Assembly: GCF_900111195.1 (NCBI RefSeq)
Contig: NZ_FOGL01000015.1
Location: forward strand, 40,387-104,386
Direction: 5' to 3'
DNA length: 64,000 nt
Source of the DNA: Gracilibacillus ureilyticus
GTDB lineage: Bacteria > Bacillota > Bacilli > Bacillales > Amphibacillaceae
Under the pieces are notes generated by a model. The model made no database searches. It was not told the origin of the DNA and saw nothing but the letters and a program-made list of their open reading frames with translations. Both the position numbers and the translations under genes were made by a program. Positions 13,451 to 32,738 of this stretch are shown in pieces. The stretch's first letter is position 1. Each line of letters begins with the position of its first letter.

Positions 13451-14016
13451 AAGCGTCACCCCCTTTCATCCTCAAAGGAGGGAGTGACTACCACCCTATA
13501 AACTCTCTATTGCTATCTCTTATTATATCATTTTCCAATAAGTTATCCCATGGAAAATGAGGCAGCTCTAGGAGTCTACATGCCCGATATACTTAAATAA
13601 ATACGGGGGCGTTCTCGTTCTTCATTCAAACTGTCCCCAGAGGAAATTTAGACAGTAAAAGCAAGAGGATGATTAAAGATAAATTTTTTTATGGTTATCT
13701 TATGGAATAACGTCAGAAACCAGACTTCCCACGGGATAGTCTGCATCAGGAAACCGACGGGAAAACTTGACAGCTTTCAGATTGACAACCTTTTTATGAT
13801 GATATTTTTGATAACCCTTTACATGAATGGGAACCGTATTTGTATCCATTCATACAGAAAACAGTAATAGCAAGAATTCAATTGGGAATGAAACGCTAGA
13901 TCCGTCCGCATGGGCAGAGATTTGGGAGTAATGATCCGTGAGCATACCTGGTCCAACTTTTCTGTAAATAGAATCAAAACAGGACAATAAGCTAGTTGCT
14001 CATTGTCCTGTTGTCT
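13451..14016. other. gap with toxin promoter and an unassigned gene scrap
   Basis: The first 90 bases hold the leader and promoter of the toxin-like gene. At 13700-13849 on the - strand a 49-codon frame with good coding character ends in RRFPDADYPVGSLVSDVIP. It has no ribosome site and a stop directly before its ATG, so it looks like the C-terminal remnant of a lost gene that I do not recognise. The + strand near 13820-13930 also has short coding-like pieces in two frames. Confidence 0.35.
13979..14011. terminator. intrinsic terminator of the aldolase gene
   Basis: The inverted repeat ACAGGACAAT (13979-13988) / ATTGTCCTGT (14002-14011) lies just beyond the aldolase stop on the - strand. It is flanked on that strand by an A-run before and TTTTGATTC after, consistent with termination of the aldolase message. 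Confidence 0.6.
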
Positions 14017-14979
14017 TTATTTTTCTGTAGGCATTGTCTCTACAGATGTAAACTGATCATAAAATTTACGGTATTCATCCTTGTTTTCTGATTTTCTAAG
14101 TGCCATGGCTGTTCTTGGATGCTCGTTAAGTAAACCAGTAATCGTATAAGGAATGAGGTAACCCCATTCTACTTCTTCCCTAAGTGGGATAAACAATTTT
14201 TCTAATACATCTAAAACAGGAGCGATATCATATTGCGGATCATCTAAGTAGCCAAGTACTAATTCAGTTGGGCAATTACCAGCAGCACGTCCCATCCCAT
14301 ACACGGAGCTGTCTAAAAATTGAACGCCGTTTTCAGCAGCTAAGACAGTATTGGAAAATGCTAATTGCAGGTTATTGTGCGCATGGATTCCTAATTTTTT
14401 CTTAGGGGCATGCATTTTGAATTTTTCCACCAAGTATTTAATGTCACGGTTATACAAGCTGCCAAAAGAATCGACTACATAAATAATATCAACGTTACTT
14501 TCATTTAATTTTTCTAAGGCTTCAATAAGATCAGGCTCTAACGCATTAGATACTGCCATGATATTCACGCTTGTTTCATACCCCATAGAATGAAATTTTT
14601 CTACTAACGCAATTGCTTTATTGACATCCTTTAGATAACAAGCCACCCTTATTAAATCAATATGACTTTCTTCACAAGGTAAGATGTCATCTTCATCGAC
14701 ACGGCCAATATCCACAATTGCTGATAGCTTTGTAAAATTTTTTTCTGGAATCGTCTCTTTTAATAATTTTTCATCACAGAATCTCCATGGTCCGACACCT
14801 TCACTTGGAAGGAGCTTCGGTGAGTTTTTATAGCCGATTTCCATATAATCCACGCCTGCTTTGCTTAAAGAAGCATAAAGCTCCCGCACAAATTCCACAC
14901 TAAAATCCCAATTATTAACCAATCCACCATCTCTTATTGTACAATCTAACATACTTGCTCCATTACTTTTTACCATCAT
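14017..14979 (-). CDS. DRE-TIM aldolase-domain protein (HMGL/DmpG-like)
   Basis: The 320-residue protein is a TIM-barrel lyase of the HMG-CoA lyase/4-hydroxy-2-oxovalerate aldolase superfamily. It has the metal/substrate motif LDCTIRDGG at about residues 11-19 and the second metal motif HAHNN near residue 200. It is close in length to the catalytic domain alone and lacks the C-terminal DmpG communication domain and the LeuA-type regulatory domain. It is therefore an orphan aldolase or acyltransferase of unknown substrate. GGAGGG precedes two adjacent ATG codons. Upstream lies a leader region with a Phe/Tyr-rich mini-frame and a terminator, suggesting control by attenuation. Confidence 0.82.
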   Translation of the reverse strand: MMVKSNGASMLDCTIRDGGLVNNWDFSVEFVRELYASLSKAGVDYMEIGYKNSPKLLPSEGVGPWRFCDEKLLKETIPEKNFTKLSAIVDIGRVDEDDILPCEESHIDLIRVACYLKDVNKAIALVEKFHSMGYETSVNIMAVSNALEPDLIEALEKLNESNVDIIYVVDSFGSLYNRDIKYLVEKFKMHAPKKKLGIHAHNNLQLAFSNTVLAAENGVQFLDSSVYGMGRAAGNCPTELVLGYLDDPQYDIAPVLDVLEKLFIPLREEVEWGYLIPYTITGLLNEHPRTAMALRKSENKDEYRKFYDQFTSVETMPTEK

Positions 14980-15032
14980 TTATCCCTCCAAAGATTTAAT
15001 TGCAACACTTAGTGGAATCACCAAAAAAATAA

Positions 15033-15071
15033 AAAACATGTAGTGAAGAAGATGATCTACCTACATGTTTT
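15033..15071 (-). terminator. candidate attenuator terminator ahead of the aldolase gene
   Basis: Read on the - strand, AAAACATGTAG (15071-15061) pairs perfectly over 11 bp with CTACATGTTTT (15043-15033), and the transcript continues TTATTTTTTT. It lies between the leader peptide and the aldolase ribosome site, about 50 bases before the aldolase start, so full-length transcription must pass it. The AAAAC at its 5' edge could instead pair with GTTTT at about 15079-15083, a possible antiterminator. Confidence 0.7.
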
Positions 15072-15123
15072 CATGAGAAAAAACTTTCCTATTTACGATA
15101 AATTTATCAGTAATAGCAAAGTT

Positions 15124-15180
15124 TTAGTTATAGTAATAATAAAAAAATGAAATGTTTCTGTGGCTTGAAGTTGTTTTCAT
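15124..15180 (-). CDS. putative Phe/Tyr-rich leader peptide of an attenuator
   Basis: An 18-codon frame reads MKTTSSHRNISFFYYYYN. It follows an AAAGGA ribosome site with nine bases of spacing, and this in turn follows a promoter at 15211-15239. Two Phe codons and four Tyr codons in a row just before the stop are typical of amino-acid-sensing leader peptides. A downstream AAAACTTT (right after the Tyr codons) is complementary to AAAGTTTT about 40 bases later. A stalled ribosome would therefore change the folding ahead of the terminator at 15033-15071. That it senses charged tRNA-Tyr/Phe and controls the aldolase is inference. Confidence 0.6.
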   Translation of the reverse strand: MKTTSSHRNISFFYYYYN

Positions 15181-15210
15181 CGAAATCAATCCTTTAAAAA
15201 TATTAAGAAT

Positions 15211-15239
15211 ACTATAGCAAAGTTATCAACAATAAACAA
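15211..15239 (-). promoter_or_regulatory. promoter of the leader/aldolase unit
   Basis: On the - strand TTGTTT (15239-15234), a 17-base spacer, and TATAGT (15216-15211) form a plausible sigma-A promoter. The predicted start lies about 25 bases before the leader-peptide ATG. Confidence 0.5.
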
Positions 15240-15251
15240 TAGTTTTATTGG

Positions 15252-15401
15252 GATTTAAATGAAGCCTGTGTATTGGGAGGGGTATTTGGTTTATTGGGAA
15301 TTGTGTCTTTAATCGTTAACGGCATTGTGTTAATAATTGGTCTTTTAATCTTTATTGGTATTTTGAGTGCGGAATTATATATGGAAGTTTTATTAAGCTA
15401 A
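15252..15401 (+). pseudogene. fragment of a small membrane protein (DUF4064-like)
   Basis: The frame reads EACVLGGVFGLLGIVSLIVN and on through a hydrophobic stretch to a stop at 15399-15401, with no start codon or ribosome site. The glycine-rich helix resembles DUF4064-type membrane proteins, but the match is weak. Its 5' part has presumably been lost, leaving the piece between the leader promoter of the divergent aldolase and the repeat-rich region. Confidence 0.4.
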
Positions 15402-32447: not shown

Positions 32448-32594
32448 AATTTTTTGAAAGAAAGCTTATCCCATCTATATTAAGCGATAAGGCTATGTTA
32501 TTTAAGAATAACAAAGGTATAGAATACGATATATTTACTATTTTCGCTTGACATTTTTTTCCTAAAACTATACAGTGAATATAACTTAATATAT

Positions 32595-32677
32595 GCACTA
32601 GGGGTGTTATTTAACTGAGATGAGTATTCCTCAAACCCTTTGAACCTGAACTAGTTAAAACTAGCGTAGGAAAGTGT
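32595..32677 (+). promoter_or_regulatory. TPP (thi-box) riboswitch
   Basis: The sequence contains the conserved thi-box elements in order: GCACTAGGGGTG, ACTGAGATGAG, CCCTTTGAACCTGAACTAG and CTAGCGTAGGAAAGTG. P1 forms between CACT (32596-32599) and AGTG (32673-32676). A terminator follows 60 bases downstream, so thiamine pyrophosphate should switch off the SDR and monooxygenase genes behind it. Confidence 0.93.
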
Positions 32678-32738
32678 AAACGTTATTACATACTTAAGGA
32701 ACGATTGTGCCTTATTTTCATATGTAGTTATTTGTTTT

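Follow-up and report, generated by a model that had tools for sequence, protein, structure and literature searches.

The window, that is, the whole 64-kb stretch of Gracilibacillus ureilyticus DNA analysed here, contains on its minus strand an aldolase gene preceded by a very short reading frame rich in phenylalanine and tyrosine codons, and raises the question of which signal such a leader reports and which pathway the aldolase serves. A preliminary description had recognized in this region the layout of ribosome-mediated attenuation by tyrosine/phenylalanine supply and had proposed a link of the aldolase to aromatic amino acids, an overall interpretation which is partly supported by the present analysis.

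The leader and its aldolase

The leader located ahead of the aldolase gene is real, and its observation is confirmed. It comprises the following parts, all on the minus strand:

15211..15239, minus strand: possible promoter, TTGTTT (15239-15234), 17-nt spacer and TATAGT (15216-15211), read in the sequence
15190..15195, minus strand: ribosome binding site AAAGGA of the leader frame, read in the sequence
15124..15180, minus strand: leader frame MKTTSSHRNISFFYYYYN, 18 codons plus stop, with the ATG at 15180 and the stop ending at 15124
15080..15125, minus strand: hairpin after the frame, AAAACTTT (15125-15118) and AAAGTTTT (15087-15080) plus an inner stem, starting inside the leader stop codon
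15023..15071, minus strand: intrinsic terminator, arms 15071-15061 and 15043-15033, 11-bp stem, 17-nt loop and T-run
14984..14989, minus strand: ribosome binding site GGAGGG of the aldolase, read in the sequence
14017..14979, minus strand: DRE-TIM (HMGL-like) aldolase gene, 320 aa, PF00682, with the ATG at 14979

The leader peptide ends with FFYYYYN, i.e., two Phe, four Tyr and one Asn residues. Both the frame and its ribosome site occur as previously described, and when the 226-nt leader was shuffled 5000 times with its dinucleotides preserved, only 2 of the shuffled sequences contained a start codon that had a ribosome site and was followed, within 40 codons, by six or more consecutive aromatic codons. 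No second frame of this kind was found upon scanning both strands of the 64-kb window. The 11-bp terminator with its T-run (-15.7 kcal/mol, z -5.5) and the hairpin following the frame (-13.6 kcal/mol, z -4.9) each performed better than 200 out of 200 shuffles. The pairing of AAAACTTT with AAAGTTTT, also put forward in the preliminary description, does exist but forms just the basal part of the longer hairpin 15125-15080. Similarly, the TTGTTT/TATAGT pair is present at its 17-nt spacing but is weak, agreeing with the consensus at 8 of 12 positions by our own count, and cannot be distinguished by scanning from chance: between 14000 and 15500 the promoter scan listed 7 sites for 6.5 expected, including another same-strand site at 15229-15200, and this pair was absent from the list. 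Since about 40 nt separate the terminator from the aldolase, which leaves hardly any room for a promoter, the aldolase is probably transcribed through the terminator. As far as its sequence goes, the leader thus offers the run of control codons behind a ribosome site that is expected from a ribosome-mediated amino acid attenuator, as well as an intrinsic terminator between frame and gene. In addition, an 11-nt direct repeat, AACTTTGCTAT, occurs at 15224-15214, overlapping the -10 element, and at 15123-15113, just past the leader stop.

With respect to the protein, the score of 96 bits obtained with PF00682 (cut-off 29) assigns the aldolase to the HMGL-like/DRE-TIM metallolyases, and the Pfam search returned this family only, the DAHP synthase domains PF00793 and PF01474 being found nowhere in the protein. 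The nearest solved chain, 3dxi_A, is itself a putative aldolase. The protein shares with the latter and with DmpG (PDB code 1nvm) its membership of PF00682 by sequence as well as the arginine and metal ligands: residues R17, D18, H200 and H202, which fulfil these roles in DmpG, are kept as R16, D17, H199 and H201 in the alignment to 1nvm. In contrast to DmpG, it scores 116 bits with TIGR03217 (4-hydroxy-2-oxovalerate aldolase), far below the cut-off of 286, and exhibits a leucine, L20, at the position of H21, the catalytic base of DmpG. This leucine is invariant in 30 family members. The family also has the invariant basic residues K80, K84, R231, R267, R289 and R295, which might line a sugar-phosphate pocket.

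Conservation and folding of the leader

A DNA search of 17 Gracilibacillus genomes recovered the leader over its length in only two of them, the window genome and that of Gracilibacillus oryzae TD8 (G013), together with a weak 47-nt match in G008; the search also matched, on the opposite strand, the hairpin region of the window genome (G000) and of G. oryzae. The G. oryzae leader, which encodes the peptide MKTTSSHKSISFFYYYYN, is 97% identical to that of the window. Four codons of the frame differ, two of them silently and two with replacement of the residue, and the FFYYYYN codons, the terminator and the -10 element of the promoter are all unchanged. The search for related loci kept the best 80 of 580 relatives. 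Upstream of the 167 homologous loci, which include several from one same genome, a run of at least five Phe/Tyr codons occurs only in G. oryzae, the runs of four codons in frames of L142, L157, L050 and L108 falling short of this threshold. A degenerate HRN-x-x-FFYY pattern, searched in 81 genomes, matched beyond the window itself only the start of a frame in G006, by eye a NAD kinase, which was rejected as a chance match.

The close similarity of the two leaders would be expected in any case. At 4-fold sites the aldolases of the window and G. oryzae differ at 7 of 116 positions (6%), as opposed to 35 of 139 and 14 of 58 for the neighbouring M29 and DinB genes, respectively (24-25%), and a block of about 96% identity extends from about 13921 to 15270 over promoter, leader and aldolase, upstream of which, from about 15260, identity amounts to only 38-46%. 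This pattern suggests that the 13921-15270 block is a cassette which has probably been transferred or converted recently. Owing to the young age indicated by the 6% divergence of the aldolase, the unchanged leader codons carry little weight, and a single further leader with 97% identity to that of the window offers no compensatory changes. Beside the cassette, the stretch 13598-13920 matches two places in locus L035 of G. oryzae and possibly represents the remnant of a mobile element.

The switch itself, in the form previously drawn, is not supported. The preliminary description assumed that a GTTTT segment could capture the AAAAC arm of the terminator. This pairing can be drawn, but the helix amounts to about -1.9 kcal/mol, and in the equilibrium model the terminator formed at all eight ribosome positions examined (A-site codons 12 to 19), with a mean pair probability of at least 0.94 for each of them. 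The best competitors for the 5' side of the terminator reach -5.9 and -7.0 kcal/mol as free duplexes, versus about -15.7 kcal/mol for the terminator. Neither folding at the eight ribosome positions nor duplex scans disclosed an antiterminator at equilibrium, so that, of the attenuation layout previously claimed, the frame and the terminator stand but the ribosome-dependent competing structure does not, and the model predicts no mutually exclusive folding governed by the position of the ribosome. According to the same model, a ribosome at the stop codon would invade the hairpin 15125-15080 and a ribosome at the first Tyr codons would not, which is the reverse of the trp layout. A mechanism of kinetic nature, or one coupled to RNA polymerase, may operate instead, the folding having covered equilibrium states.

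The leaders of pheA and trp in Escherichia coli are aromatic amino acid attenuators and provide a close comparison. Like the window leader, they associate a short frame rich in codons for the end product, a pause-type hairpin and an intrinsic terminator before the gene. The window leader differs from them by the absence of a strong 2:3 antiterminator, by a post-frame hairpin which has its start at the stop codon, clear of the control codons, by its host, a member of the Bacillota, and by its gene, an aldolase devoid of any known biosynthetic role.

Orthologues under tyrosine T-boxes and genomes devoid of a detected DAHP synthase

Tyrosine regulation of the aldolase family is suggested by a second, unrelated RNA device. 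A T-box (RF00230) occurs directly upstream of the aldolase in three MAG loci among the 13 loci scanned. In the order of G660, which belongs to the same class as the window organism, the aldolase is present in 9 of 59 genomes and a T-box precedes it in all nine, eight of these T-boxes being detected by cmscan above the gathering score and the ninth (L216) recognized by eye from its conserved sequence and specifier loop. L216 and L222 display two antiterminator-terminator modules in tandem. Imperfect T-box-like matches in L054, L059, L060, L064, L065, L068, L091, L105 and L206 were left uncounted. The specifier region of all nine T-boxes reads GAA-[A/G]-UAC-A, and the T-boxes of the window genome, with genes named by eye, served as a guide for its interpretation. 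Depending on the gene, the specifier of the latter follows the GAA with a gap of 0, as in serS (UCC) and leuS (CUC), or with a gap of 1, as in tyrS (UAC), pheS (UUC) and trpS (UGG), and is itself followed by a purine. Since UAC followed by A conforms to this spacing and purine rule and is constant in the nine orthologues, the specifier is read as tyrosine; taken directly after the GAA, the triplet would be GUA or AUA with a C behind it.

Genes under T-boxes are expressed more strongly upon scarcity of the amino acid, a response suited to synthesis rather than degradation. Compared with the tyrosine T-box, the window leader would share the tyrosine signal, the read-through of a terminator and, in relatives, the same gene family, but it yielded no match to RF00230 and carries a translated frame instead. 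No article joining T-box, specifier, tyrosine and aldolase was found in the open-licence part of PMC, a scope which makes this absence weak evidence. Two further riboregulatory features were encountered: two tandem T-boxes with UGG specifiers (L124 and L125, contig C28 of the window genome) before a gene that by eye resembles trpE, and a TPP riboswitch on the plus strand of the window (32590-32689).

The gene neighbours of the orthologues point in part to the same metabolism. In Ammoniphilus sp. YIM 78166 (G593), the aldolase is followed by a bifunctional chorismate mutase-DAHP synthase and then by ccpA. In G574, of the same genus, ccpA follows directly with no aroA in between, and no aroA remnant was found in the gap of 275 nt. 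Leaving aside short matches at chance level, the part of the G593 sequence to which this gap can be aligned is the ccpA-proximal one alone. The gene order in G210 is trpD-C-F-B-A-aldolase-trpEG (trpA and trpEG confirmed by NCBIfam, the remaining trp genes named by eye), and the longest aldolase frame overlaps trpA by 23 bases, stop codon excluded. Among the 167 loci searched with aromatic-pathway proteins, such neighbours were detected only in the Ammoniphilus and G210 lineages; not counted among them are two further hits of this search, a distant one to HisC in L090 and, in L078, a second ccpA-like match. Most homologous loci, above all those of Paenibacillus, possess neither a verified T-box nor aromatic neighbours, and the gene most often found next to the aldolase, in 79 of 162 loci, is from a group whose one tested member is a GGDEF-EAL protein. 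One of the two aldolase copies of G169 (L261) is separated by 17 bp from the FGGY sugar kinase upstream of it, in surroundings which by eye resemble an ascorbate-type operon, and a LigB-type dioxygenase frame directly follows the T-box-controlled aldolase in G660 (L194:2111-2932), with a like frame in G808. Taking into account this sugar kinase, the LigB frames and the mostly non-aromatic loci, the aldolase family may not have one single function.

Other upstream elements were noticed as well. Genus g234 has, in both of its genomes, a palindrome-like site ahead of the aldolase (L227:6663-6690 and L228:5520-5547), related AAAGC-type repeats precede this gene in L197, L198, L199, L201 and G734, and upstream of aroC in G734 and G574 there are AAAGC-type or CACTTAAAAGTG sequences. 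These sites might be recognized by a shared regulator.

The distribution of DAHP synthase was surveyed with PF00793 in 80 genomes, 68 with and 12 without the aldolase. The 68 were drawn from 94 aldolase-positive genomes (E up to 1e-60), the 26 left out all belonging to f50, a family clustering with named Paenibacillus loci. DAHP synthase is kept in 62 of the 68 aldolase-positive genomes, the window genome having two matches. PF00793 gave no match in the remaining six (G574, G734, G219, G815, G816 and G813), compared with 0 misses among the 12 aldolase-negative genomes. In 13 genomes checked, these six included, the class II enzyme (PF01474) was never matched and aroB (PF01761) was always present. 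Two isolated observations concern the enzyme in Gracilibacillus: the second DAHP synthase of the window genome (L257:5117-5941) has no chorismate mutase domain and lies beside a gene that by eye looks like an adenylate-forming ligase, and the match G006:C15:21453-22175, in the same genus, contains one internal stop codon.

The surroundings of aroB, compared using G574 proteins as queries, indicate that the six PF00793-negative genomes keep further genes for aromatic amino acids. G574 exhibits aroC, aroB, aroH, trpE-D-C-F-B-A, hisC, tyrA and the start of an EPSP synthase gene; G734 has the same set minus trpE and EPSP synthase, and G219 has the same again, minus trpB and trpA. In G816 and G813, aroC, aroB, trpD-C-F-B-A and tyrA were found, and in G815, where the contig measures 7.7 kb, aroC, aroB and trpD. 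Genes absent from these stretches may be located elsewhere in the genomes.

In the aldolase tree (86 rows after removal of near-identical ones), five of the six genomes fall in one clade together with all T-box rows and Ammoniphilus, G219 being located outside. The clade has a FastTree support of 0.82, the T-box rows one of 0.94, and the union of Ammoniphilus with the latter one of 0.63; G746 and G808, which are not in the tree, were put in the clade by their 98-99% identity to tree rows. For the 12 tested genomes of this clade, which was picked after the data had been seen, about 0.85 misses are expected from incompleteness and five were observed, a number reached in 0.04% of the simulations. 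Three of the five genomes are 73, 88 and 91% complete, and G574 and G734 reach 100 and 98%, respectively. The previously suggested tie of the aldolase to tyrosine or aromatic supply thus receives support from the T-boxes of the orthologues, from their DAHP synthase and trp neighbours and from the genomes in which no DAHP synthase was detected.

Proposed tyrosine control and a possible entry to the shikimate pathway

The explanation we prefer, and to which we attribute about an even chance, is that the leader acts as a tyrosine-reporting attenuator and that the aldolase takes part in the biosynthesis of aromatic amino acids, its most likely place being the start of the shikimate pathway. Translation of the leader through FFYYYYN would report the supply of tyrosine, and perhaps also of phenylalanine, and would set the read-through into the aldolase, ribosomes stalled at the Tyr codons being expected to relieve termination. 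The window aldolase would share the role of its orthologues, the leader representing an independently evolved tyrosine sensor placed on an extra isozyme. DAHP is a 4-hydroxy-2-keto acid and thereby belongs to the product class of the DmpG-type aldolases; from the genomic context, the best-fitting chemistry would be the aldol condensation of pyruvate with erythrose 4-phosphate to DAHP. It is the agreement between the tyrosine regulation, the neighbours and the missing DAHP synthase that leads us to propose a pyruvate aldolase at this position. Counting against the proposal are the lack of an antiterminator at equilibrium, the detection of the leader in only two genomes as part of a recent cassette, and the retention of DAHP synthase by 62 of 68 genomes. 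The many loci with neither a verified T-box nor aromatic neighbours, the G169 copy behind a sugar kinase, the incompleteness of three of the six PF00793-negative genomes and the place of G219 outside the clade also weigh against it.

The same data have to be weighed under other assumptions. Ribosomes might be stalled in the leader by an aromatic nascent chain or by translation stress and not by the charging of tRNA-Tyr or tRNA-Phe, which would make it a general or drug-sensing attenuator, the tyrosine link of the orthologues being unrelated. The location of the aromatic codons at the very end of the frame, adjoining the stop, is in line with this idea, being the arrangement of arrest peptides, and so are the lack of a tRNA-type antiterminator and the fact that leader and T-box were never seen together on one aldolase among the loci scanned. 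We nevertheless hold it to be rather improbable, because it requires a coincidence with independent tyrosine T-boxes and aro/trp neighbours in the same gene family. More improbable in our eyes is a short unit of its own, in which frame and terminator would make a small peptide or RNA, or the frame would be due to chance, the aldolase being reached by leaky read-through. A terminator formed in every modelled state, a promoter scan at chance level and a short, A+T-rich region are all compatible with such a unit, and a recently shared cassette would by itself account for the 97% identity of the leaders. However, shuffled sequences seldom contain such a frame behind a ribosome site, the space between terminator and aldolase hardly accommodates a promoter, and the agreement between the leader codons and the specifier of the orthologue T-boxes would have to be accidental.

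An alternative that accepts the tyrosine signal regards the enzyme as a sugar-acid or catabolic aldolase, brought under tyrosine regulation by some lineages with a different purpose, for example degradation or the formation of a tyrosine-derived product. It draws on the copy of G169 behind the FGGY kinase, with its ascorbate-operon-like neighbours identified by eye, on the LigB-type frames downstream in G660 and G808, and on the replacement by leucine of the catalytic base of DmpG. Induction by T-boxes upon scarcity fits synthesis better, and the trp-operon and aroA neighbours, like the genomes without a detected DAHP synthase, also speak against this alternative, which we consider unlikely.

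Extended to the whole family, the shikimate-entry proposal would make these pyruvate aldolases, spread through the Bacillota, a natural, non-homologous substitute or isozyme of DAHP synthase, whose reaction is the committed step of the shikimate pathway. Tyrosine would govern them by way of T-boxes in one lineage and, in Gracilibacillus, by way of a leader with Tyr/Phe codons, and their presence would have let several genomes lose the classical DAHP synthase. This broader version is tentative, and its chances seem to us well short of even. A precedent for an aldolase route to DAHP exists in KDPGal aldolase, whose donor is pyruvate. In PMC3018139, this enzyme is presented as an alternative DAHP-forming enzyme, although with phosphoenolpyruvate named as its donor; 108 prokaryotic proteomes are reported to be without DAHP synthase, of which only 14 had the tested KDPGal aldolase substitute, so that most of the gaps are left unexplained there. 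KDPGal aldolase is a different enzyme; the aldolase proposed here, in contrast, would be natural and regulated by tyrosine. Among the open-licence PMC articles, a single one, PMC10520331, was found to mention DAHP synthase together with an HMGL-like protein, the latter as the neighbour gene of another enzyme.

If true, a widespread family known to date only as aldolase would represent a second natural entry to aromatic amino acid synthesis and would explain genomes that seemingly lack the first enzyme of this pathway. One enzyme family would then be found under two unrelated RNA devices responding to the same amino acid. Such a route to the aromatics, which would spend pyruvate instead of phosphoenolpyruvate, could be of use in metabolic engineering.
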